Shown here: positions 1 through 13,294 of the stretch, in pieces
Numbering within the stretch: position 1 is the first letter of the stretch
How the letters are laid out: the number at the start of each line of letters is the position of its first letter
Assembly: GCA_902546975.1 (NCBI GenBank)
Contig: CACCLU010000002.1
Coordinates: forward strand, 124,001-188,000
Reading direction: 5' to 3'
Source of the DNA: an uncultured Alphaproteobacteria bacterium
Lineage (GTDB): Bacteria > Pseudomonadota > Alphaproteobacteria > HIMB59
DNA length: 64,000 nt
Notes under the pieces: model-generated
What the model saw: the letters and a program-made list of their open reading frames with translations, nothing else
Database searches by the model: none
Told to the model about the DNA's origin: nothing
Made by a program: the position numbers and the translations under genes

Positions 1-1
1 T

Positions 2-580
2 AACAACTTAGAGGATATACTTAGTGATCTTATTGATTTGAATTATAAATTAGATTTTAAAACTAAAACTTATCCTATGGATCCAAAAAATAAAATTCAA
101 AAGAAATTCAGAACAAAAAAGAATTCAAATGATTTTTATAAAAAAGGAGATCCTTTAGAACATCATGATTACAGTAAACACAGTAAAAAAATTGAAGATA
201 AATTTGAATATATGATCAATAATCATGGAAAGATCAAAAAAGAAATGAAAACAAGGAAATTTGCTCAAAGAGTTTTACCAAAAAGATGGGAAAAAAAAGG
301 TCCGTCCATAACCACAACATCTTTACCAGATGATTATGTACATTTTAGTCAGCCTAGATCATTAACTGTCAGAGAGTGGGCAAGATTACAAACTTTTCCA
401 GATTGGTATATTTTTAAAGGGAAAAGAACCACTGGAGGGATAAGAAGAGCAGGTAATCCTCAAAAAGGTATTTATGACAGGGAGCTCCCACAATATACTC
501 AAATTGGAAATGCAGTACCAGTGTTCTTAGCTTATAAAATTGGTAAACATTTCCTAAAATTGATTAAAGAGATGGAATAA
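2..580 (+). CDS. C5-cytosine DNA methyltransferase, C-terminal part (DrmMII-like), cut by window edge
   Basis: The reading frame is open to the left edge, so only the last 192 codons or so are present. The visible part carries the two last conserved blocks of C5-cytosine methyltransferases: motif IX (RSLTVREWARLQTFPDWY) and motif X (QIGNAVPVFLAYKIG). The basic stretch before motif IX would be the end of the target recognition domain. The PCQ, ENV and SAM-binding motifs would lie upstream and cannot be checked. Such enzymes methylate cytosine at position 5 in a short site. In class 2 DISARM the methylase DrmMII is of this type and marks host CCWGG sites (established knowledge). The downstream MvaI-like protein belongs to a CCWGG/CCSGG-recognising family, so a similar target is inferred. 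It is separated from the next gene by 40 bases. Confidence 0.88.
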   Translation, partial: NNLEDILSDLIDLNYKLDFKTKTYPMDPKNKIQKKFRTKKNSNDFYKKGDPLEHHDYSKHSKKIEDKFEYMINNHGKIKKEMKTRKFAQRVLPKRWEKKGPSITTTSLPDDYVHFSQPRSLTVREWARLQTFPDWYIFKGKRTTGGIRRAGNPQKGIYDRELPQYTQIGNAVPVFLAYKIGKHFLKLIKEME

Positions 581-620
581 ATCGATCAATTTTTCGTCTC
601 ATTAATTAAGAGATGCAATT

Positions 621-1295
621 ATGATTGAAGAGTATATTAGGAAATTTGAGGAAATTAAAAATTCTGGTTGGATCAATAGTCATAGACCAGGTGATACTGG
701 TGTAGGTTACACACTCGAAAAACTGATTAATCAAAGCAAAGAGCAAAAAAAACAATTAAGAATAAAGTCTATTAGGAAAGGTTCGAGCAGAAGATTAACA
801 TTATTTGCAAAAATACCGGTTTGGGGAATTGGGGGAAGAACAAAACTGTTAGATGACTATGGTTATTTTGACCAAAATAATAGATGGTCCTTGTACACAA
901 GTATTACTTCTAAAAAGAAAACTAAATTAGGTTGGCAAATTGAATTAGACGATGACAAAGTTTTTTTAAATAATTTTGGTAATGCAGTTATTTATTGGGA
1001 ACTATCTGTTTTAAAAAAAATTTTACAAAAAAAATTAAATCAAATGATTTTAGTTTACGCAGATTTTAAAAAAAATAATTTAAGAGAAGAATTATTCAAA
1101 TATAAAGATTTTTACCTTGTTCAGTATCCAGATCTAAATAGTTTTACCAATCTTATTCAGGATGGATCTATTTGCATAGATCTAGCAATACACCGAGAGA
1201 TATCATCAAACATAGTCAAAGATAAAGGTTTTTTATTTAGAGTAAGTGAGAACAAAATTGATAAGTTATTTCATTCTGTGAAAAAAATTATTTAA
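621..1295 (+). CDS. MvaI/BcnI-family restriction endonuclease-like protein, probably catalytically inactive
   Basis: This 224-residue protein matches, from memory, MvaI along its whole length. The N-terminal block reads SGWINSHRPGDTGVGYTLEKL; the TLF strand follows, and the C-terminal DNA-contact region contains IQDGSICIDLAIH and KGFLFRV. In MvaI the active site is Asp-x4-Glu-x-Lys in PDFHDIEIK. Here the corresponding stretch is QKKQLRIK, so the lysine remains but the aspartate and glutamate positions are Gln and Arg. The conserved glutamate in TLEKL is kept. I infer a DNA-binding, non-cleaving or weakly cleaving protein that may recognise a CCWGG-like site. Its stop overlaps the next start by one base (TAATG), and the methyltransferase lies just upstream, which fits a restriction-type pair now used inside a DISARM-like operon. 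Confidence 0.78.
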   Translation: MIEEYIRKFEEIKNSGWINSHRPGDTGVGYTLEKLINQSKEQKKQLRIKSIRKGSSRRLTLFAKIPVWGIGGRTKLLDDYGYFDQNNRWSLYTSITSKKKTKLGWQIELDDDKVFLNNFGNAVIYWELSVLKKILQKKLNQMILVYADFKKNNLREELFKYKDFYLVQYPDLNSFTNLIQDGSICIDLAIHREISSNIVKDKGFLFRVSENKIDKLFHSVKKII

Positions 1296-2272
1296 TGATA
1301 AAACAAATTTATTTAGACAAAAATTTATCATCACCAATTGGTGATTGGTTCAGTGATTTATACATTACAGGTTTTCAATTAGAAAAATGTCTATTAAAAG
1401 ATCGTAATTTCACCTTTGCTATTGTAAGCCCAGACATACCATCAACCGCAATAGCTATCTCATTGGGCTTAATTTGGAATAATATTTTTAAGAAAAAGAA
1501 AGAAGAACAAAATATTATTTCTAATAACTTAGTAAAAATGTCAACTCGATCACCATATATTGATTATTTAAAAAGCTTGAATAGAGGAGATGAGCTTTAT
1601 CTTAAAAACAATAAAAATTCAAAAAAAAGGATCTTTTTTGACTCTTGTATTAAAGATGATTTGCATGGTCCTTTTCTTTTCAAATTTCATATTTATGAGG
1701 GTAATAAGCAATATTCAAATATACTGCCATTAAAAAAAATCAAACAACTTATTTCTATAAGATCAAAATACGTGAATAATTATTTTTTAGAAAATTTTTT
1801 TTATGACACACACGATCAAAAAAATTTTAGTTTACTAAGGAACTTTATATATATTCTTGGAGAAAAATCAAAATTTGCAAAAATATCTGAAAGTGATGTA
1901 TTTATTGAAAATACAAAAATGGGAACAGACAATAGGTCGACTAAAGGAAGATTAGGTGACTTTCTTAGAATTACTGAAGAAGATAATAATTTAGATTATA
2001 TTTCTACTATCAAGTCAGATAGAGTTAAAATTAATTTTGAAGAGGTAGCTAAAAGAGAATTTACAATTTTTTTAGGCTCTAATTCTTTCATTAAACATAG
2101 TACTCAAAGAAAAATAAAAAATAAAATAGTAATTTTAGGAACCAAAGATGCTCAACTTCACGAAGCAGTAAATATTCTAAATAATAATTTTATCACAACA
2201 GAAGTCTTTAAAGAAAATTTTGAAAAAATTCAAAGACTAGAAAGAAACTTTCCTGCATTATTTTACCAATGA
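1295..2272 (+). CDS. unrecognised protein, candidate N-terminal half of a split DrmE
   Basis: This 325-residue protein has no motif I can assign with certainty. A hydrophobic strand-helix near residues 40-62 (FAIVSPDIPSTAIAISLGL) and another near residues 255-290 (TIFLGSNSF, IVILGTKDAQLHEAVNIL) look like Rossmann or RecA-type alpha/beta repeats without a P-loop. It lies between the MvaI-like gene and a 514-residue protein, sharing one base with the first and four (ATGA) with the second. The two together would be about 840 residues, and the position next to DrmA and DrmB is that expected for DrmE of class 2 DISARM. The assignment to DrmE rests on context and general look, not on a firm sequence match. 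No transmembrane segment or signal peptide is seen. Confidence 0.45.
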   Translation: MIKQIYLDKNLSSPIGDWFSDLYITGFQLEKCLLKDRNFTFAIVSPDIPSTAIAISLGLIWNNIFKKKKEEQNIISNNLVKMSTRSPYIDYLKSLNRGDELYLKNNKNSKKRIFFDSCIKDDLHGPFLFKFHIYEGNKQYSNILPLKKIKQLISIRSKYVNNYFLENFFYDTHDQKNFSLLRNFIYILGEKSKFAKISESDVFIENTKMGTDNRSTKGRLGDFLRITEEDNNLDYISTIKSDRVKINFEEVAKREFTIFLGSNSFIKHSTQRKIKNKIVILGTKDAQLHEAVNILNNNFITTEVFKENFEKIQRLERNFPALFYQ

Positions 2273-3813
2273 TACTTAATAATATAAACCAACATCATTT
2301 AAAGTTTCAAAAGAAACTTAACTTTAAAGAGATAATATTAAAAAATGAAAAAATATCAAAATTTAGTAGACACTTTCAAAATTTAAGGAAAATTATTTTC
2401 TTAGAGGAATTAAAAGGTGATAGTTACTGGCTTGAAATAATAAAGTTTTTATACGAAGCTCAAAATTTATATCTTAAGTACCCATTACCTAGTAATTATT
2501 TTCAATCTTATAATAAAGAAAATTTTGAAAATTTGTTATCTGTTTACAAAAATGTGTCAGATGTTCATCCAGAGTGCGCAAATGAAATTAATGAAATATT
2601 TGAGTTACTTAATTTTTCTCTCAATACTGATGAAAATATTTATCTTAAGGAAATCAATCATCTACTTGCCACAAATCCTATAGATAGTAATTATGTACTT
2701 TATTTAAAAAGTGGATCTCTTTATAACAATTTTGTCGATATATATAAAAATTCAATTGATAAAAGAATTACTATTGTAAATGAAGCTAATTATAGAAAAT
2801 TAAATCTAGATTTTGATTATTTGTTAGTTTTAGGTTGTCTGAATTTTTACGAAGCAAGAGACTTTATTGACCCTAAGTTTAAAAATCTGATTTGCTTTAG
2901 ACATAATTTTCTACCTACCCCAAATTTTGAAAAATTTAATTTTAAAAATCCAGTTTGGTCTAGATCTGTATTAGAATTTAAAACTAATAATGCGATAGAA
3001 AAAAAACAAATTTTTATTCCAGTTGAAGAAGAGATTGATAAAGAAAGTGAGTTTATTATTAACTACTACACACAAAATCTTTCCACTGGAAATAATGAAG
3101 ATAATGAGAATTTAAGAGAAGCAAATTTCTGTAAACTATCTGGCAATTATATTTGCTTTCTGTGCAATCATAAAGGAATTGACTCTACACAAGAAGTTTT
3201 GCAAATATTTGAGGATAGCTCTATTAAAATTACAAAACAAGAAATAGACGATATGAGCCCTGGTGATTTTGTAATCTTGAGAGTTGGCAAAAGCGATCAT
3301 GATTTAATAGAATTAAAAACAGAAGAAATTTTAAAAGAAAAATATGTTTTTTTAAATAATAGAAAAAATTTATGGAAAACTAACTTGCAAAAATACATAA
3401 ACTTAAATACCAGAGAAATTTTAAAAAAAAATATGAAAAATATTGGACTTAATCCAAGTGATGCTAATTTGAGAAATTGGCTGAGCCAAGATAATCAAAG
3501 GTTAAAGCATGATAATGATTTCATTAAATTATTACAATTAATTGGATTTGATCAAAAAGTATCAAAAGAAATTTCAAGTGAAATGAAATCTTTAATAATT
3601 GCCAAGCAAAAAGCAGGTAGACAAGTGAACGCAGAGTTAAAAAAAAGAATATTTAAGGATGACAATGGCATAGAAGAAATTTTAAATAAAGGATATGAAA
3701 TTTATAATTTTGAAGGATATAATCATAGTATAGGTGTTTTTCAAATCGAATATATTAAAAAAGATAAATTATTAAAATCATCCAGTAGTCTTGATGAGGC
3801 AATTAAAGTTTAA
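2269..3813 (+). CDS. unrecognised protein, candidate C-terminal half of a split DrmE
   Basis: This is a 514-residue protein of unknown function. A short block, FDYLLVLGCLNFYEARDF (about residues 183-200), resembles the strand and helix of a degenerate helicase-like domain. The C-terminal third has a GDFVILRVG block, then NLRNWL and AGRQVNAELKKRIF, a pattern I associate with the helical tail of DrmE-like defence proteins. It is translated in a -1 overlap (ATGA) with the preceding gene and shares one base (TAATG) with the following NERD-helicase, so the three are very probably made together. No Walker motifs or metal-binding cysteine pairs are visible. It could be the second half of DrmE or an unrelated accessory subunit. 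Confidence 0.45.
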   Translation: MILNNINQHHLKFQKKLNFKEIILKNEKISKFSRHFQNLRKIIFLEELKGDSYWLEIIKFLYEAQNLYLKYPLPSNYFQSYNKENFENLLSVYKNVSDVHPECANEINEIFELLNFSLNTDENIYLKEINHLLATNPIDSNYVLYLKSGSLYNNFVDIYKNSIDKRITIVNEANYRKLNLDFDYLLVLGCLNFYEARDFIDPKFKNLICFRHNFLPTPNFEKFNFKNPVWSRSVLEFKTNNAIEKKQIFIPVEEEIDKESEFIINYYTQNLSTGNNEDNENLREANFCKLSGNYICFLCNHKGIDSTQEVLQIFEDSSIKITKQEIDDMSPGDFVILRVGKSDHDLIELKTEEILKEKYVFLNNRKNLWKTNLQKYINLNTREILKKNMKNIGLNPSDANLRNWLSQDNQRLKHDNDFIKLLQLIGFDQKVSKEISSEMKSLIIAKQKAGRQVNAELKKRIFKDDNGIEEILNKGYEIYNFEGYNHSIGVFQIEYIKKDKLLKSSSSLDEAIKV

Positions 3814-5516
3814 TGGAGCTTTATCCAAATTTTATTGATAGATCTAACACAGATAGCCCTGGAGAGATCACTTTCTTTGATAAAATAAAAAATATAAAAA
3901 GCTCTAAGAATATAGTTTTTCACTCACTTGATATCAGGAAACACATTTCAAACTTTATGGGTGAAATCGATTTCTTAATGATAGTCCCTAACAAAGGAGT
4001 TCTTACTATTGAAGTAAAATCGCACAAAAGTATTAGTTTTGACAAAAATACAGGAATTTGGAAATTAGGTAATGATGCTCCAGAAAAGCGTGGCCCATTT
4101 AAACAAGCTAGAGAGAACCGGATAAGTTTAAGAGATATATTAATAAAACGATTCCCAACACTCAAAGAAATATTATTTTGGGATCTAGTTATTTTTACTG
4201 AAATAGAGATCGCAAATCAATTTGAATGGAATAAATGGGAGTATATGGATGTTAGAGATTTTAGTTTATCTGAAAAAGATTTCTTAAAAAAAATTGAATT
4301 AACTTTGGAAACAGCATACATCCAGAATAAAGACAAAATCCCTATTAAGCAAGGACAGCCAAATGATAGTCAAATGGGCATCTTAAGAGATCTTAGAAAA
4401 AATATAGAAATATATCTGTCTCCCAAGCAAAGAATTAAAAATCAAGAAAAAGAATTACATAAAGTATTCACACAAAATCAATTAAAAGTTTTAGATTTAA
4501 TTAGTTATAACAAAAGAATTGTTGTTGAGGGGCCTGCTGGTACTGGTAAAACATTACTGGCTATAGAAATTGCAAGAAGGTTAAATAATGAGAATAAAAG
4601 AACATTATTTTTATGTTTTAATACTTTGTTATTCCAATATCTAAGTGACCAGCTTTCTTCACTTAGTAATATTTATTTATCTACTTATGCAAACTTCGTA
4701 AAAAAAATTACAAACAAAGACTTAGGCTCAGTTAATCAAGATGAAATACTCTTGAATGTTCTTGACTTCAAAGATGAAAAAAAATTTGATGCAATTATTA
4801 TTGATGAAGCGCAAGATATTTTAGATGAAAACAGTTATGATATATTAGACAACTTATCTAAAAGAGGTATAAAAAACGAAACTTGCTATATTTTTGGAGA
4901 CTTTGAGCATCAAAAAATTCAAAATGTTAAAAACGAATTTAATATTAAAAATTTCACAACCAACTCACAATCTTTCTTTATTAAATTAAATGAGAATTGT
5001 AGAAACCTACCAGATGTACTTGAAGTTGCAAAATTATTTTGCAAAACTGATCCATATTCGAGAGTTCTAAGATCTGATCAAAAATCAGACCCTATAACTA
5101 AACCCTATGAAAATGAAGAAGACCAACTTGGTAATTTGGCTTCAATAATATTAGAATTAGATAAAGAATTTATAAGAAAAGAAATAACAATACTTACAAT
5201 GAAAACAATCAAAGAAAGTATATATAAATACAGAGAAGTTTTTCCAATATTTAATTTACTAAACGATATACCCAACAAATACAAACCTATAAAATATAAT
5301 GGTATATTTAAATTTGACCGGAAAAGATTTAATTTTTCGAATACCATTGATTTTACTACGGTGCGAAAGTTTAAGGGCTTGGAAAATAACATTATAATTG
5401 TCACAGATATTGATGATTTAGACTCTAATTTGCAAAGAAATATTCTCCATACAGCTATTACTCGAACAAAACAAAAAATAATTATATTATTTAAAAAAGG
5501 TATTAAAGTTGTCTAA
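3813..5516 (+). CDS. NERD nuclease domain fused to superfamily-1 (UvrD-like) helicase
   Basis: The 567-residue protein begins with a NERD (nuclease-related) domain. GEIDFLMIVPNKG at about residue 50 and TIEVKSH at about residue 68 give the Asp...Glu-x-Lys layout of PD-(D/E)xK nucleases. From about residue 220 it is a superfamily-1 helicase: Walker A GPAGTGKT (about residue 240), Walker B IIIDEAQD (about residue 328), NENCRN (motif IV region), and a C-terminal KFKGLENNIIIVTD and HTAITRTKQKIII (motifs V and VI). It likely unwinds and cuts DNA. Standard DISARM has no such gene; its nuclease-like subunit is DrmC of the phospholipase D family, so this protein may replace DrmC. The gene overlaps both neighbours, which ties it to the system. 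Confidence 0.85.
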   Translation: MELYPNFIDRSNTDSPGEITFFDKIKNIKSSKNIVFHSLDIRKHISNFMGEIDFLMIVPNKGVLTIEVKSHKSISFDKNTGIWKLGNDAPEKRGPFKQARENRISLRDILIKRFPTLKEILFWDLVIFTEIEIANQFEWNKWEYMDVRDFSLSEKDFLKKIELTLETAYIQNKDKIPIKQGQPNDSQMGILRDLRKNIEIYLSPKQRIKNQEKELHKVFTQNQLKVLDLISYNKRIVVEGPAGTGKTLLAIEIARRLNNENKRTLFLCFNTLLFQYLSDQLSSLSNIYLSTYANFVKKITNKDLGSVNQDEILLNVLDFKDEKKFDAIIIDEAQDILDENSYDILDNLSKRGIKNETCYIFGDFEHQKIQNVKNEFNIKNFTTNSQSFFIKLNENCRNLPDVLEVAKLFCKTDPYSRVLRSDQKSDPITKPYENEEDQLGNLASIILELDKEFIRKEITILTMKTIKESIYKYREVFPIFNLLNDIPNKYKPIKYNGIFKFDRKRFNFSNTIDFTTVRKFKGLENNIIIVTDIDDLDSNLQRNILHTAITRTKQKIIILFKKGIKVV

Positions 5517-8500
5517 GGATTTAAATCATGTAGAAAGCAGAGATTGGCTAATAGATGAATTGAAAAAAGAAGTTATTGGCCCAGAACCTTTTGGTGAAGA
5601 AATAGACTCTTCTGAACCACTAAATATATCTAAAGAGGATTTTCAATTAAAAAGATTTATTGACAAGAATGATGGTCAGGAAATTATGTTTTTTGAGTCT
5701 CCTTTACAAAAATACGGTGCAGGAATTTTATTTCCTAAAGAGCTTTTAAGCAACAAGCAAGAAAGCGAAAAAAACAATGATGAACTCAATGAGTATACTA
5801 ATAGTTCAAATTCAGAGGAAGATGATGAAGATAAAAAAAATTTAAAGAATTTAGATAAGATATCTCAAAGAATTCAAGATAATCTCAATAAATCTCATTT
5901 TTTAGAAGATGATGAAGAGTTTGACTTATCTGGAGTAAATTCACCTCGACCGTCTGCAATGGGTTTGTCTTTTTATGTAAATTTAAACCCAAATGGGCAT
6001 TTAATTATTGGTAGTCCTGAAAAAGATGATGTTGGTTGCTACAAGCAAATATTTAGTGATTTCAAAGTAGGTGGTGGAAGGAATATATGGAAAAGAGAAA
6101 ATTTCAAGTTTCAAAAAAAAATTGCAACTAATGAATTATTATCTTTGGATAAAAAAAGTACATTTTTATTTAAAAATGAACATTTTGATGTTCTCAGTCA
6201 CAAAAGATTTAATTTGGAAATTTTTCTCATTATTCGACCAACTGAAGAAAACAATAAAAAACTTATTACAATATCTTTACAAAATAATACACCTTTGGGA
6301 TTATCTTTAGAAAGTATTTGTCTTTTTCAATCCGCAATTGAATGTAAATTTGATGATAACCAAAATTATTTTTTACCGTATCCTACAGGCAAGTTTCAAA
6401 AATCAATAGCAGAGACAGATGATGAAGAAAATAATTTAAATTTAATTTATAGAAATAAAAAAAATTATGCTATTGGACATGGTTGCTCAGTTAACTGGCA
6501 GATCAATAAAAATGAAAATTTCATAAAACTATTTGCAAATCATTTTCCGATTTTTGATTTTCCAAATATAACCCCAGATTTAAAAATAAATAATGAGGAT
6601 TTTACTTTTTCAATGAAATCTTTAGCAGGTTTAGATGATACTAATATTTTTGATAATCTAAACGTACTTACTATAGAATATGAAAATTGGATAAATAATG
6701 AAAAGAGTAAAATAAAAAATATAGATAAAAATTTACAAAATGCGGCAATTATTAATATAAAAAAATGTGAAAAGTGTTTACTTAGTATTAGGGAGGGAAT
6801 TGAATTTATCAAAAATGATACAACTGCATTAAAAGCATTTAAATTAACAAACGAGGCAATTCTTTTTCAGCAGATAAGAGGAAATATAAAAAAAAAGACA
6901 TTTGAGGAAATGAAAGATGGCTATGAACTGCCAAATTTTGAAAATTTTGATAGTTCTAAAATAGGAAAGTGGAGACCATTTCAGATAGCGTTTTTGTTGA
7001 CATCAATTAAAAGCGCAGTCATTTTAAATGACCAGAATAGAGAGGATGTAGAACTAATTTTTTTTCCAACAGGCGGAGGAAAAACAGAAGCATATTTAGG
7101 ACTATCAGCATTTACTTGTTTTTATAGAAGATTAAAAAATCCTCTTGATAAAGGAGTTCAAGTATTGATGCGATATACCTTAAGATTGCTCACCGCACAA
7201 CAATTTATGAGAGCCTCTGGCATGATATGTGCCATGGAAATAATTCGATTAAGAATGATTGAGGAGCTGGGTAAAGATAGTTTCTCAATTGGTGTTTGGC
7301 TTGGAAGAGATAATACACCAAACAGAAATGATGTAAAAAGTGATAAATATCCAGGCGCTCTTCAAGTGCATACTAAACTTCTCTCAAATCCAAAGGAAAC
7401 CCTTTATCCTTTTTTAATAACAAAGTGCCCTTGTTGTTCAAGCCCAATCGGCAAAACATTAATTAACAACCAGATAAAGATTGTCGGACTGCAAAGAGAT
7501 AATAATGAAATTCAATTTGTATGTGAAAATACTAATTGTGAGTTTTATGAAAAAAATCTTCCTATTTATGTTGTTGATGAGGATGTTTATAAATACCAGC
7601 CTTCAGTTTTAATTGGCACAGTTGATAAATTTGTAAGAATAACATGGAATAAGGACTCAAAAAAAATTTTTGGATTAAATGATGATGGTGTAAGAGAGTT
7701 CTCTCCTCCAAGTTTAATTATTCAAGATGAACTTCACTTAATTACAGGACCATTGGGCTCTATGTGCGGTATGTATGAGGGACTTATTGAAGATTTATGC
7801 TCGCATAAATTAGAAAATAAAGTTTTTAAACCAAAGATTATTTGTTCTACAGCTACAATTAGAAGTTTTAACAGGCAAGTAAATGACTTATATAATAGAA
7901 AAAATGTAAATCTTTTCCCCCCATTTGCATTAAATGTTGAAGATAGTTTTTTCTCAAAATATGCAATTAAAGATGAAAATTTAATCAATCCAAAGAAATA
8001 TTTAGGTCTATTAACTCCAAATTATGGCTCAATACAAACAGCGCAAGTGAGAATTTATTCGCGCTTATTATATTCAGTTTTTCAGATGGATGAAGAAAAG
8101 CAAGACCCATGGTACACATTAATGAATTTTTTTGGCTCATTAAGAGAGCTAGGCACAACTATCTCCCTAATACAATTAGATATCGTCGATAGATTAAAGC
8201 TTTTAGGTAGAAGGTATCAATCAGATAAATCTCAGATAAGAAGGTTAGGTAGTCATTTAAACTCAATAATGGAATTAACTAGTAGAAAAAGTAGTGATGA
8301 AGTTGCAAGTGCTATTGATGAACTTTCAGTAAGTAAAAATATAAAATTATCCTCCAAAAATTCTAACAATTTACAACCTGTTGATATTTGTTTAGCATCA
8401 AATGTAATTGAGGTTGGAGTTGATGTTCCAAGACTGTCATTATTAACTATCCTTGGTCAACCTAAGACGACCTCCCAATATATTCAAGTTTCTGGAAGAA

Positions 8501-9057
8501 TTGGTCGTAACTGGATGGAGCGCCCTGGTTTAGTAGTCATATTGTATGGTCATACAAGACCAAGGGATAAATCTCACTTCGAAAAATTTAAAACATATCA
8601 TGATAGACTTTACGCACAAGTCGAGCCTATGAGCGTAACACCCTTTTCCCCACCTGTTATTGAAAAAGCGCTACATGCAGCACTAATTGGTTATATAAGG
8701 ATGTATGGTAATCAAGATGTGAACTCTAAACCTAAACCAATTCCAAATAACTTAATTAATGATTTTAAGATTTTAATTAGCGATAGAGTTAAACAAATAG
8801 ACATAAATGAATATGATTATTTAATCAAAAAATTTGAAGATAGAATAAAAAATTGGAAAGACTTAGATCATGATTATTGGACTAAAGACTCTAAAGACAT
8901 AGATATAGGTTTAATTCATCAAGCTGGTGATTTTTTACCACCAGATTTTCAGTATCGTACTTGGATTACACCTACATCGATGAGAGATGTTGATACAGAG
9001 TCAAATGCGGTGATTTCTCATCATTATAATAATATGGAAGAATATGAAAAACGATAA
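5509..9057 (+). CDS. drmA: DISARM helicase DrmA
   Basis: This is a very large superfamily-2-like helicase of 1182 residues. It opens with SRDWLIDELKKEVIGPE, the usual start of DrmA. Walker A is FFPTGGGKTEAYLGL (about residue 518), the DEXH-like motif II is IIQDELHLITGP (about residue 737), and the C-terminal lobe has SNVIEVGVDVPRLSLL and QVSGRIGRNW (about residue 994). Between the lobes is a likely zinc knuckle (CPCCSSP with CENTNCEF, residues 643-680). An acidic, low-complexity stretch lies at residues 85-140. In B. paralicheniformis DISARM, DrmA works with DrmB as the core DNA-engaging complex (established). The start is a TTG that overlaps the upstream stop by 8 bases; the next gene overlaps its end by 14. 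Confidence 0.93.
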   Translation: MSKDLNHVESRDWLIDELKKEVIGPEPFGEEIDSSEPLNISKEDFQLKRFIDKNDGQEIMFFESPLQKYGAGILFPKELLSNKQESEKNNDELNEYTNSSNSEEDDEDKKNLKNLDKISQRIQDNLNKSHFLEDDEEFDLSGVNSPRPSAMGLSFYVNLNPNGHLIIGSPEKDDVGCYKQIFSDFKVGGGRNIWKRENFKFQKKIATNELLSLDKKSTFLFKNEHFDVLSHKRFNLEIFLIIRPTEENNKKLITISLQNNTPLGLSLESICLFQSAIECKFDDNQNYFLPYPTGKFQKSIAETDDEENNLNLIYRNKKNYAIGHGCSVNWQINKNENFIKLFANHFPIFDFPNITPDLKINNEDFTFSMKSLAGLDDTNIFDNLNVLTIEYENWINNEKSKIKNIDKNLQNAAIINIKKCEKCLLSIREGIEFIKNDTTALKAFKLTNEAILFQQIRGNIKKKTFEEMKDGYELPNFENFDSSKIGKWRPFQIAFLLTSIKSAVILNDQNREDVELIFFPTGGGKTEAYLGLSAFTCFYRRLKNPLDKGVQVLMRYTLRLLTAQQFMRASGMICAMEIIRLRMIEELGKDSFSIGVWLGRDNTPNRNDVKSDKYPGALQVHTKLLSNPKETLYPFLITKCPCCSSPIGKTLINNQIKIVGLQRDNNEIQFVCENTNCEFYEKNLPIYVVDEDVYKYQPSVLIGTVDKFVRITWNKDSKKIFGLNDDGVREFSPPSLIIQDELHLITGPLGSMCGMYEGLIEDLCSHKLENKVFKPKIICSTATIRSFNRQVNDLYNRKNVNLFPPFALNVEDSFFSKYAIKDENLINPKKYLGLLTPNYGSIQTAQVRIYSRLLYSVFQMDEEKQDPWYTLMNFFGSLRELGTTISLIQLDIVDRLKLLGRRYQSDKSQIRRLGSHLNSIMELTSRKSSDEVASAIDELSVSKNIKLSSKNSNNLQPVDICLASNVIEVGVDVPRLSLLTILGQPKTTSQYIQVSGRIGRNWMERPGLVVILYGHTRPRDKSHFEKFKTYHDRLYAQVEPMSVTPFSPPVIEKALHAALIGYIRMYGNQDVNSKPKPIPNNLINDFKILISDRVKQIDINEYDYLIKKFEDRIKNWKDLDHDYWTKDSKDIDIGLIHQAGDFLPPDFQYRTWITPTSMRDVDTESNAVISHHYNNMEEYEKR

Positions 9058-10903
9058 TCCCATTAGAACTTCACAGTTGATTAGACCCTTTGGAGTAGGT
9101 TCTCTCTATGTTACAAAAGACGGCGCAGGTTTAATAGCATGTGGCTTAGATCACTGGTACAAATCATTTAATGGTGCATCAAGGAATAAAGATGAATTAG
9201 ATGAGTTTCTTATTTATGAATGGAGACTTCAAAGACAATTGAATGTTAGTCATTTTAGATCTCCTCCAGAATTTAGGGAAAAGGATTTTACCTCTACAAT
9301 TAATGATAAAAATACGGGTTTGGAAATGCCTTTTTTGCGTTTTCCAAAATGGCATTTTTGTAAAAAATGTCGAAAAATGGAGGAATTAGCACTACATAGA
9401 AGGGGCAAACCAAGATGTCGTGATTGCAAGCTTGTTTTGATACAAGTACCAATAGTCGTCATTTGTGAAAGTGGTCATATACAAGATTTTCCTTGGAATG
9501 AATGGGTACATCGAACTGCAAGCCCAACTTGTGATGATAAAAATTTATTTTATAAGTTTAGCGGAAGTCCTGGTTTACAAGGTCAAAGAATAGAATGTGG
9601 TACATGTAAAAAATCTAGGACATTAGGAGGCGTTTTATTTGGAACAAGATTGCAAGATAGTTTATCAACAGAGCACAAGTACTCTTGTAGTGGTAAAAGA
9701 ATTTGGAACCATCAAGAGACACCATCTCCATGTAATTCAAATCTAAGAGCCACATTAAGATCCTCCAGCAATATTTATTATGCTGTTCTTGAAAGTTCAA
9801 TTTTTGTTCCCGAGAACTTTGACTCTTTGCCTGAGGAGCTTATAAAAATTTTCAATTCAGTAGTTATTCGAACAAAGGTCGATACTTTGAATCAAATTGG
9901 ACATACCATTACCCCAGATATAATAAGAGATACAAGTTACAAAAAAGAGTTAAAGAAATTCTCTGATGAACAAATATCAAGGGCTATTAAAAATATGATC
10001 GATGCCAATAGTCTTTCTAACTCTGCAAATATTCCAAAAGAAGAAAATCAAAATGATTTTAAATTCCCTGAATATCTACTTTTTCAAAAGAATAATGATA
10101 GTGATGACTCAAGAACAATAGTTCTTGATAAAACGAATTACAAAGAAATAGTCTCTAATTTTTTTGATAAAATAACTCTGGTCAAAACATTAAAAAAGAC
10201 CGAGGTACTTTGTGGTTTTAACAGAATCTTACCTAATGGATCAATTTCAAAAAGAGAACTTTCAGAGTTGATGTGGGCTGAGAGGCCAGAGTACCAAGAC
10301 TCTTGGTTACCCGCTGTTAATCATAAGGGAGAAGGAATTTTTTTACAATTTAAAGAAGATATGATCAAAGAATTTGAAAATAGAGAGGTTGTATTAGAAA
10401 GAGTAAGAAATTTTAAAAAAATTATTCAGAGAGAATGGGAAGCTTCAAGAATGAACCCAAGATATATTTTTCTTCATACATTTGCACATTTATTAATTAA
10501 TACATTAATTTATGAGTGTGGATATGGGGCTGCTGCGCTTCAAGAGAGAATTTATTCTTCAAATGATGAAAAAAACCCAATGGCAGGTATATTAATTTAC
10601 ACTTCTTCAGGAAATAAAGAAGCCACAATGGGTGGTCTAGTTAGAATGGGCCAACCTGATTATTTAGAGAGAGTTATAGAAAAATGTATCGAAAATTCTA
10701 AATGGTGCTCTGTTGACCCAGTTTGTATGGAAGTCGGTGAAGTGGCTGGCCAAGGTCCATATTCATCTAATCTTGCATCTTGCCACAATTGCAGTTTGGT
10801 ACCTGAAACATCTTGTGAATTCTTCAATAGTTATTTAGATAGGGGTTTTGTTACAGGTAATATTAAAAATGATAATTTAGGTTTTTTCAGTAAATTAATT
10901 TAA
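9044..10903 (+). CDS. drmB: DISARM protein DrmB (DUF1998)
   Basis: This 619-residue protein starts with IRTSQLIRPFGVGSLYVTKD, typical of DrmB. The N-terminal third has paired cysteines (CKKCRK, CRDCK, and the C...H of CESGHIQDFPWNEW) likely binding zinc. The DUF1998 domain near residues 470-600 contains LHTFAHLLINTLIYECGY and the terminal cluster CMEVGEVAGQ, CHNCSLVPETSCEFFN. DUF1998 proteins partner with DrmA-type helicases. It overlaps drmA by 14 bases and ends the operon: 51 bases later an unrelated metabolic gene begins. No drmC follows, which is unlike class 2 DISARM as usually described, although drmC could be upstream of the window. Confidence 0.93.
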   Translation: MKNDNPIRTSQLIRPFGVGSLYVTKDGAGLIACGLDHWYKSFNGASRNKDELDEFLIYEWRLQRQLNVSHFRSPPEFREKDFTSTINDKNTGLEMPFLRFPKWHFCKKCRKMEELALHRRGKPRCRDCKLVLIQVPIVVICESGHIQDFPWNEWVHRTASPTCDDKNLFYKFSGSPGLQGQRIECGTCKKSRTLGGVLFGTRLQDSLSTEHKYSCSGKRIWNHQETPSPCNSNLRATLRSSSNIYYAVLESSIFVPENFDSLPEELIKIFNSVVIRTKVDTLNQIGHTITPDIIRDTSYKKELKKFSDEQISRAIKNMIDANSLSNSANIPKEENQNDFKFPEYLLFQKNNDSDDSRTIVLDKTNYKEIVSNFFDKITLVKTLKKTEVLCGFNRILPNGSISKRELSELMWAERPEYQDSWLPAVNHKGEGIFLQFKEDMIKEFENREVVLERVRNFKKIIQREWEASRMNPRYIFLHTFAHLLINTLIYECGYGAAALQERIYSSNDEKNPMAGILIYTSSGNKEATMGGLVRMGQPDYLERVIEKCIENSKWCSVDPVCMEVGEVAGQGPYSSNLASCHNCSLVPETSCEFFNSYLDRGFVTGNIKNDNLGFFSKLI

Positions 10904-10954: not shown

Positions 10955-13294
10955 ATGAATAAATTTAAAAAAATTGTTGTAATTGGTGCTGGTACGATGG
11001 GTTCAGGAATAGCCGCTCACCTTGCAAATTCAAACCGTCAAGTAGTCTTGCTTGATCTCAAAGGCAAAGACAAACCCAACCAAATTTCTGAAAATGCGAT
11101 TGATATTATCAAAAAGTCAGATCCACCCCTATTAGTGGAAAGGTCTCGAATTGACCATATCAAACCAGGTAATCTCGATGATGATTTTAATGAGATTAAA
11201 GATGCAGATTGGGTTATCGAAGCTGTTGTTGAGCGTATTGATATCAAACACAAACTTTACTCCCAAATTGATAAAGTTCGCAGCCCCAACTCTATTATTT
11301 CATCTAATACTTCAACAATTCCTCTTTCAATCCTGACACAAGATATGTCCGATAGCATGAAAGCTGATTTTTGTATTACTCACTTTTTTAATCCTGTCCG
11401 ATTTATGAGATTATTAGAGATCGTTGAAACACCAACGATGAATAAAGACAAGATGGGAGGACTTCGTGATTTCTGTAAAAATGAGCTAGGTAAAGGAATT
11501 GTGAATTGTAACGACACTCCTGGTTTTATTGGCAATCGAATTGGTGTGTACGCGATGCAAGTGGCAATGTATGAGGCTTTAGAACGAGGCCTTCCAGTAG
11601 AAATTGCAGATGCCTTATTTGGCCGACCATTAGGAATTCCTAAAACAGGTGTTTTTGGACTCTATGATCTCATTGGAATTGATTTGATGAAAGATGTTCT
11701 TGCAAGCTTTAAAAAAGAATTACAAGAAAATGATCCTTTTATGGATGTGGTAAAACCTCACCCTTTGGTCGAGCAGTTACTTGACAAAGGTTTTAATGGA
11801 AATAAGGGCCCTGGTGGTTTTTATCAAACAACAATTGTTGAGGGCGATGAACACGTTAAAGCCATGAATACTTCAGACATGAGTTATTATGATTTTGATA
11901 AAGTAGATTTAGAAATCGCTAGAAGAGTTGAGAAAGAGGGCATCAAAGCACTCCTTGATGATGATAGTGAGTATGGTCGATATGCTTTTGCAGTTCTAGC
12001 AAAAATCATTAATTATAGCGCTTTTTGTATTCCTGAAGTTACATCAAGGGTAACAGACATCGATGACGCTCTCCGCATGGGATTTAACTGGAATGAAGGG
12101 CCATTTGAATTATTAAATGAGTACGGTCTCAACAAATTTGTTCAACGACTTCAAGATGAAAAACAAGATATTCCTGAGTTGTTGACAACTATGATTAAGC
12201 TAAAACAAGAGCCTTACGACTCAGCTTCCTCACGAGCCTATAATCACGAGGCGGGCATGAAGTTTATCTCCAGAGGAGAGGGCGTTCGCCGATTAGGTGA
12301 TCACAAGAAATATGCTAACCCTTTATCTAAAAATTTTGCTGCCACTATATGGCAATTTAATGATGAGCCACGAGAACAGAAGGTACTATGTTGTGAATTT
12401 CACACGAAGGCTAATGCCTTGAACGCAGATGCCATGAAAATTTTAGAGGAGTCAGTAGACCGTCTTGAGCAAGATAATTATCAAGGGCTTGTAGTTTATA
12501 ATGAAGCTATGAATTTTTCTGCAGGCGCTGATTTAAATACCATGATTGGTTTAGCTGACGTAAAAGATTGGAAAGGTATCGATAAATACCTATCTGATTT
12601 TCAATCCGCGTGTATGAAATTGAAATATGCATCGAAACCAACAGTCAGTGCTGTCGCAGGTCTAGCTATTGGTGGTGGTTTTGAAGTGGCATGCCAAACT
12701 ACTAAGATGGTTGCTCACATGAATAGTACTTTAGGTTTAGTAGAAACAGGCGTCGGCCTTGTTCCAGGTGGTGGTGGTTGTAAAGAATTATTGTGGAGAT
12801 GGGTACAAGACAAAAAATATGTAAATGACCATGATCAAGCAGCTCTTCAAGTATTTGATATTATAGGATATGGCCTAATGGCCCATTCCCCATTGCAAGC
12901 TAAAAAGCATAAATTTTTTCTTGATGATGATATTTTTGTTTTAAATAGAGACAATCTTCTTGTGGAAGCCTTTAATCAAGTATCATTATTAAAGAGTGGA
13001 TATTCAGCTCCAGAAAAGCCAAAGTTCACACTAAGCGGACCTGAGGTAAAAGAGAAAATGCATCAAGTTTTATTGGATTTAGAGCAGAAAAAGATCATTT
13101 TTGGCTATGATGTTGATATTGGTCTTCATTTAGCAACCGTACTTAGCGGGGGTGATACAACTAAATCTAAAGAATTGTCGGAAGCTGATCTATATGATTT
13201 AGAGCGACAGTCTTTGATAAATTTAATACAATCCAATAAGACGAGGGATAGGATCCATGCAATGTTGTCTACAGGGAGAAGGCTAAAAAACTAA
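10955..13294 (+). CDS. FadN-type bifunctional 3-hydroxyacyl-CoA dehydrogenase / enoyl-CoA hydratase
   Basis: This 779-residue enzyme of beta-oxidation has the dehydrogenase domain first: NAD-binding VVIGAGTMGSGIAAHL at residues 7-22, and the catalytic ITHFFNPVRFM region. The crotonase-fold hydratase domain follows (about residues 460-720: NFSAGADLN, GLAIGGGFEVA, ETGVGLVPGGGG). This order, and the length near 790, match Bacillus FadN rather than E. coli FadB, whose hydratase domain is N-terminal. It would hydrate and oxidise acyl-CoA intermediates. The acyl-CoA ligase gene starts on the last base of its stop codon (TAATG), so the two are translationally coupled. Arginine is often CGA, CGT or CGC, unlike the AGA bias of the core genes, hinting at a different origin. 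A thiolase or acyl-CoA dehydrogenase partner is not in the window. Confidence 0.9.
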   Translation: MNKFKKIVVIGAGTMGSGIAAHLANSNRQVVLLDLKGKDKPNQISENAIDIIKKSDPPLLVERSRIDHIKPGNLDDDFNEIKDADWVIEAVVERIDIKHKLYSQIDKVRSPNSIISSNTSTIPLSILTQDMSDSMKADFCITHFFNPVRFMRLLEIVETPTMNKDKMGGLRDFCKNELGKGIVNCNDTPGFIGNRIGVYAMQVAMYEALERGLPVEIADALFGRPLGIPKTGVFGLYDLIGIDLMKDVLASFKKELQENDPFMDVVKPHPLVEQLLDKGFNGNKGPGGFYQTTIVEGDEHVKAMNTSDMSYYDFDKVDLEIARRVEKEGIKALLDDDSEYGRYAFAVLAKIINYSAFCIPEVTSRVTDIDDALRMGFNWNEGPFELLNEYGLNKFVQRLQDEKQDIPELLTTMIKLKQEPYDSASSRAYNHEAGMKFISRGEGVRRLGDHKKYANPLSKNFAATIWQFNDEPREQKVLCCEFHTKANALNADAMKILEESVDRLEQDNYQGLVVYNEAMNFSAGADLNTMIGLADVKDWKGIDKYLSDFQSACMKLKYASKPTVSAVAGLAIGGGFEVACQTTKMVAHMNSTLGLVETGVGLVPGGGGCKELLWRWVQDKKYVNDHDQAALQVFDIIGYGLMAHSPLQAKKHKFFLDDDIFVLNRDNLLVEAFNQVSLLKSGYSAPEKPKFTLSGPEVKEKMHQVLLDLEQKKIIFGYDVDIGLHLATVLSGGDTTKSKELSEADLYDLERQSLINLIQSNKTRDRIHAMLSTGRRLKN

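Follow-up and report, generated by a model that had tools for sequence, protein, structure and literature searches.

The left end of a 64,000-nucleotide (nt) stretch of DNA (hereafter the window; bases 124001-188000 of contig C2), taken from the 1.29-Mb, 94% complete genome of an uncultured alphaproteobacterium of the order HIMB59, carries an operon of the DISARM type (defense island system associated with restriction-modification) in which a NERD (nuclease-related domain) nuclease fused to a helicase precedes drmA (Table 1). All seven operon genes lie on the + strand, with 40 nt between the stop of the C5-cytosine methyltransferase (MTase) gene and the start of the MvaI-like gene, and the last six overlap by 1, 4, 1, 8 and 14 nt in the list of open reading frames (ORFs). 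An earlier, sequence-only reading of this DNA had described an MTase tail and six genes overlapping by 1 to 14 nt that end in DrmA and DrmB, a layout that the ORFs and family matches confirm, and had called the operon DISARM-type, in agreement with the presence of DrmA, DrmB, an MTase and DrmE. The DISARM core consists here of DrmA and a separate DrmB, with a complete C5 MTase upstream that presumably serves the system. This MTase gene (L002:11345-12580; 411 aa; PPCQ motif recognized by eye) ends at window position 580. The window DrmA scores 839 bits against the NCBIfam equivalog NF038325, below its curated cut-off of 950.

Table 1. Genes of the operon, in window positions (aa, amino acids; SF2, superfamily 2)
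Feature	Position	Strand	Evidence
C5-cytosine DNA methyltransferase, 3' part; putative DrmMII-type role	1..580	+	PF00145 4.9e-16 on the tail
MvaI/BcnI-family protein, 224 aa, predicted catalytically inactive, probably accessory	621..1295	+	PF15515 1.3e-33
DrmE-N, N-terminal part of split DrmE, 325 aa	1295..2272	+	Profile match to N-terminal part of single-gene DrmE
DrmE-C, middle and C-terminal part of split DrmE, 514 aa	2269..3813	+	PF24957 DrmE_C 5.2e-5 (under cut-off); profile match to single-gene DrmE
NERD nuclease and UvrD-like helicase, 567 aa, proposed effector	3813..5516	+	NERD PF08378 2.2e-10 and helicase domains
DrmA, YprA-family SF2 helicase, 1182 aa, TTG start	5509..9057	+	PADLOC 2.7e-207; NF038325 5.6e-252
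DrmB, DUF1998/MZB protein, 619 aa	9044..10903	+	NF038324 3.4e-121 (over cut-off); MZB PF09369

By profile comparison, the two unnamed genes between the MvaI-like and NERD-helicase genes are DrmE split in two, which the sequence-only reading had not recognized; the subunit is present and not missing. From its middle to its C-terminus, single-gene DrmE aligns with the DrmE-C family profile (E 3.7e-32); another DrmE group also matches that profile (E 5.8e-21). The DrmE-N family profile (alignment A4) matches the N-terminal part of single-gene DrmE with a probability of 89 (E 2.2e-6) and that of another DrmE group with a probability of 62 (E 7.8e-5), and stays below 1 against other DrmE segments, the NERD-helicase and DrmE-C; against whole-length DrmE it reaches only 55 and 37. 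In a genome of the same genus (G132), a single 850-aa gene occupies the corresponding place and matches DrmE_C at 6.8e-18 and PADLOC DrmE at 4e-6. Pfam DrmE_C recognizes 15 of the 21 single-gene versions, and PADLOC's two DrmE models, neither of which matches either window half, recognize 3 and 1 of these 21 NERD-type relatives. Standard models thus miss much of the NERD branch (3 to 4 of 21 found by PADLOC DrmE), yet in the other DrmE group the same two models recognize just 3 and 2 of 14 proteins (3 to 5). The DrmA of Rhodococcus opacus pROB02 is annotated only as "helicase-related protein", which is also what DrmA matches lacking a NERD hit are called. AlphaFold2 models of DrmE-N and DrmE-C (mean predicted local distance difference test scores of 71.5 and 80.4) have mostly SNF2 and SF2 helicases, respectively, among their top ten foldseek matches, with PilT and Elongator among the others. 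This gives only a hint of a degenerate helicase-like fold, against which it counts that all matches have E > 0.001 and a query-normalized template-modeling score of at most 0.28 (50 listed for each half). One single-gene DrmE (alignment A5) matches the Pfam intein splicing domain (5.1e-5), and at L022:1624-2523 an HhH-GPD glycosylase gene lies between the MTase and drmE-N; we presume that this enzyme could repair mismatches arising from 5-methylcytosine.

Related loci were collected by a scan with a DrmA alignment, which contributed the best 80 loci among the matches listed from genome contigs and 17 from viral contigs; 8 loci from further genomes and the window's own brought the set to 106, and a DrmA ORF was obtained in 104 (none in L096 and L097). 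In 61 of these 104 loci (50 upstream, 11 downstream), a protein combining NERD with helicase domains is encoded no more than six genes from drmA, the neighborhood also used for C5 MTases; this proportion is biased by the selection of loci for likeness to the window DrmA. All but two of the upstream copies (48 of 50) directly adjoin drmA; the exceptions, at -2 (L027) and -3 (L037), belong to loci with a broken DrmA frame. Of the 50 NERD-upstream loci, 40 also have a C5 MTase. Within the order, DrmA relatives (E <= 1e-20) occur in 5 of 162 genomes, own included and many of the 162 incomplete, and all five loci have the NERD-helicase directly upstream of drmA. The sequence-only reading had found such an operon notable in so compact and AT-rich a genome: compactness and AT-richness are real, and these five genomes show that the case is not unique. 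In a class-level sample with at most three candidates scored per genome, a related NERD-helicase (E <= 1e-15) was found in 5 of 385 genomes, own included, each time in a DrmA locus.

The nuclease and helicase motif residues of the aligned upstream copies do not vary. Alignment A2 took 50 upstream copies by profile score, leaving out 12 of 62 upstream "NERDhel" matches that scored below 245 bits and have no NERD domain. Pfam detects NERD in 46 and UvrD_C_2 in 47 of the 50, and E18, H37, D53, E67, K69, Q98, the Walker residues G243, G245, K246, D331 and E332, and R551 are invariant in all of them. As judged from gene neighborhoods, this DISARM branch regularly includes a NERD-helicase, a proposal of the sequence-only reading that holds both in the order and in the survey. 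In seven loci with the order DrmE-DrmA-DrmB (L063, L064, L066, L069, L075, L076 and L082; 4 of 7 Bacillota by title), the NERD-helicase gene comes after drmB instead.

A FastTree tree of DrmA was built from 100 rows, the near-duplicates L009, L052 and L110 (kept in the 104-locus census) and L114 (DrmA below 700 aa) being excluded; its output flags long branches and uneven composition, which makes fine placement unsure. One 55-row branch (support 99) contains all but four of the NERD-upstream rows (45 of 49); L088, L089, L092 and L093 lie elsewhere. Eight rows of this branch have no NERD, and five of them (L035, L036, L053, L080 and L101) are contigs cut at drmA. Nested within it, a 25-row branch (support 100) includes all 22 rows with a split DrmE, the window among them. 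Its remaining rows are L030 and two cut contigs; the split DrmE-C gene of L030 was hidden under an opposite-strand ORF when ORFs were thinned by length and was recovered on recheck. The 25 rows come from Pseudomonadota, Actinomycetota, Acidobacteriota, Myxococcota, Verrucomicrobiota and Candidatus Dormiibacterota, plus a cut Poribacteria contig. On this phylogeny, the splitting of DrmE is confined to a single branch that spans six phyla.

The sequence-only reading had also reported DrmC as absent from the visible stretch, and the wider search upholds this. The gene after drmB, where class 2 DISARM has the phospholipase D (PLD) protein DrmC, is fadJ-like (named by eye) and starts at 10955. Leftward, where that reading had asked for a drmC or an intact drmE, the MTase gene is complete and neither was seen among the ORFs of the next 11.3 kb (by eye; one ORF, o137, was also profile-scanned). 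Genome-wide, the single frame with PLD domains (PF13091, E <= 0.01) has 703 aa and lies at C2:16.3-17.1 kb, more than 100 kb away; by its length we take it to be perhaps a polyphosphate kinase. Across the surveyed loci, DrmC, called at E 1e-20 with a model built from 7 proteins, was detected in 0 of 61 with a NERD-helicase and 7 of 43 others; relaxing the threshold to 1e-3 added one match, to a protein of 736 aa encoded over 5 kb past drmB in L026.

The neighboring MvaI-like gene, which the sequence-only reading had likewise counted as a core part, is not one. Of 46 other genomes or records that carry related DrmA loci (one genome counted twice, as L009 and L021), none has PF15515 above its cut-off in a search that finds the window's own copy, and the only sub-threshold match lies on a different contig of G521. 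Of the two partners that the sequence-only reading had suggested looking for in drmA neighborhoods, the NERD-helicase recurs and the MvaI-like protein, at this cut-off, does not. No control genome has the family, and elsewhere among the 162 genomes of the order it occurs only in G150 and G154, beside an SPPY-motif MTase as in ordinary restriction-modification (R-M). The window protein matches R.BcnI (2.6e-12) and R.MvaI (1.4e-11) and has lost its catalytic residues: the PD motif is missing, there is no Asp at the first catalytic position with a Glu one residue off, and Arg replaces the Glu of E-x-K just after a deletion. The acid and E-x-K are kept in ten other sequences (R.MvaI, R.BcnI, six aligned relatives and two more) as well as in L149 and L122. 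A hidden frameshift was considered and rejected, neither other frame holding the motif. We consider the MvaI-like gene accessory and its product probably dead as a nuclease.

The MTase has its own relatives. MTases of its lineage adjoin DISARM, with no MvaI, in L009 and L010 (64% identity), and others occur in G147 and G055 (61-62%), around which no DISARM genes were detected in 20 kb. Only two plasmid MTases match it at E 1e-60 (47.0% and 46.4%), each directly followed by an MvaI/BcnI gene with an intact motif: on Phaeobacter pP75_g the pair stands alone as an R-M system, and on an Alisedimentitalea scapharcae plasmid (L132:5778-18936) it lies behind DruF and DruE of Druantia II. The Alisedimentitalea similarity runs through residues 201-340 (44%), the region taken as target-recognition. 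Because these plasmid MTases directly precede MvaI/BcnI genes and the similarity spans that region, the window MTase and MvaI-like gene look like an old R-M pair. This suggests a route by which an R-M system donates its methylase to a larger defense system while the nuclease is silenced. No phage record matches the window MTase at E 1e-60, and viral contigs hold no close relatives of the window MvaI. In 76 kb of the organism's own sequence (window plus L002), CCWGG occurs 58 times (66 expected) and CCSGG 6 times (7.6 expected), so that avoidance of target sites gives no clue to the specificity of the MTase.

The site itself is variable, as different genes occupy the stretch before fadJ in relatives. 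To the left of the cassette (L002:1-10564), genes for caspase-like, TPR-CHAT, ECF-sigma-like, trypsin-like and PrsW-like membrane proteins were recognized by eye; PrsW-like genes are present likewise in L008, L011 and L139. GANTC is below expectation in the same 76 kb (119 observed, 182 expected). A promoter scan around the MTase gave fewer sites than in shuffled sequence.

Taken together, the locus is best explained, and in our judgment probably so, as a NERD-type DISARM cassette composed of a C5 MTase, a split DrmE, a NERD-helicase, DrmA and DrmB, without DrmC. The cluster is predicted to act against phages. The MTase would mark host DNA as self. Serratia DrmAB prefers 5'-overhang DNA, and methylated DNA lowers its ATPase activity, according to the portions of PMC9142583 consulted; by analogy, the window's DrmA-DrmB complex might load on incoming DNA that is unmarked and has a single-stranded 5' end. 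DrmE-N and DrmE-C, with their weak helicase-like fold matches, may scaffold the complex. The NERD-helicase would then act as the nuclease and translocase that destroys DNA, a job assumed for DrmC elsewhere; its invariant active site, the position of its gene next to drmA and the lack of a DrmC argue for this role, and it is the probable effector of the variant. The MvaI-like protein could be the inactivated nuclease of the R-M pair that supplied the MTase. An invariant nuclease site beside drmA, at loci with no detected DrmC, offers a candidate, accessible to point mutation, for the subunit that destroys phage DNA.

Several observations weigh against giving the NERD-helicase this place, beside the selection bias of the survey. 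L039, L044 and L057 sit in the NERD branch without a NERD protein and are not explained by contig ends, and in L044 DrmE directly precedes drmA. At E 1e-20, 76 plasmid records match DrmA and 2 match the NERD-helicase; these two, R. opacus B4 and Deinococcus psychrotolerans, each have a DrmA match too. In G154, the same site holds a related NERD-helicase that is part of another kind of cluster, one resembling Mza. When only full-length loci without duplicates are counted, DrmC is present in 0 of 51 with NERD and 6 of 29 without (Fisher p 0.0016), a comparison that keeps relatedness in and comprises just 9 phylogenetically independent pairs. No DrmC was detected in the other 23 of the 29 NERD-less loci either, so NERD and DrmC are not in simple exchange.

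Alternatively, the locus might be a defense island in which an R-M pair, the C5 MTase and the MvaI-like protein, adjoins an independent DISARM that does not use that MTase. We hold this to be unlikely, though it draws on the pairs found alone on pP75_g and beside Druantia II, on the MTases of G147 and G055 that stand apart from DISARM genes, and on the 10 of 50 NERD-upstream loci where no C5 MTase was detected. Yet the MvaI-like gene overlaps the start of drmE-N by 1 nt, its product has lost the nuclease site and therefore cannot act as the nuclease of an R-M system, same-lineage MTases adjoin DISARM without MvaI in L009 and L010, and C5 MTases do go with the other 40 NERD-upstream loci. A bolder proposal, which we judge quite improbable, makes the cluster a separate DISARM class with a NERD-helicase effector, where in this lineage the dead R-M endonuclease would persist as a reader that recognizes unmethylated sites by their sequence and passes DNA to DrmAB and the NERD-helicase.

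It is less probable still that this is a plain class 2 DISARM that lost drmC and received the NERD-helicase as an unrelated defense gene. All of C5 MTase, DrmE, DrmA and DrmB are present, other systems have NERD-helicases too, and DrmC is non-essential in other DISARMs (PMC9142583, in the portions consulted), but an insertion fits poorly with a NERD-helicase found in 61 of 104 loci, 48 times directly before drmA, in several phyla and with invariant motif residues. A decaying or non-functional remnant seems the most remote of these readings: the lost MvaI-like residues, a DrmE in two pieces and the low G+C of the left half would suit it, whereas every gene is open with tight overlaps, the DrmE split is common to a whole branch, and the NERD, helicase and MTase motifs are intact.

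Among systems that share single parts with this cassette, TALON likewise associates a YprA-family helicase with a NERD nuclease; as described in the excerpts of PMC12458937 used here, it comprises ARMADA-like YprA, TPR-CSD and TBP genes, is largely found in Chloroflexota, and is the only system for which NERD is mentioned there. The window differs in having DrmA and DUF1998 as separate genes (MZB in DrmB) and NERD fused to a helicase, and TPR-CSD and TBP genes are not among its operon genes. PADLOC's RTasNERD-Hel shares the NERD-helicase architecture (window copy 4.2e-41, G154 copy 9.9e-52), but the window genes have no Pfam match to a reverse transcriptase. The Mza-like cluster of G154 has that architecture too, without a DrmA or DrmB match in its stretch. 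The MvaI-like product belongs to the PF15515 fold family of R.MvaI and R.BcnI and differs from them in its lost catalytic acids, and the G150 and G154 MvaI copies have an SPPY-motif MTase as partner where the window copy has a C5 MTase.

The open-license literature, as far as its text was accessible, yielded no description of a DISARM with NERD, a nuclease-related domain or MvaI, or of a third class. The term "DISARM-like" appears in the part of PMC10270631 that we saw, and a figure legend in the excerpts of PMC12458937 speaks of a DISARM-like clade that includes many uncharacterized DISARM-like classes. We accordingly rate the NERD-type cluster as a variant of DISARM for which no published description was found among open-license papers. 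With class 1 (drmD, MTase, drmA, drmB and drmC, as on Deinococcus p96k), it shares the DrmA/DrmB core; no DrmD SNF2 helicase, adenine MTase or DrmC is among the window operon genes, the upstream ORFs having been checked by eye. Class 2 is made up of drmMII, drmE, drmA, drmB and drmC, and both classes were reportedly defined by Ofir and colleagues in 2018. The window matches class 2 in its C5 MTase, DrmE family, DrmA and DrmB, and departs from it in adding a NERD-helicase, lacking DrmC and splitting DrmE. From its gene content, the cluster looks like a poorly recognized branch of a known defense system, with a layout common to several phyla.

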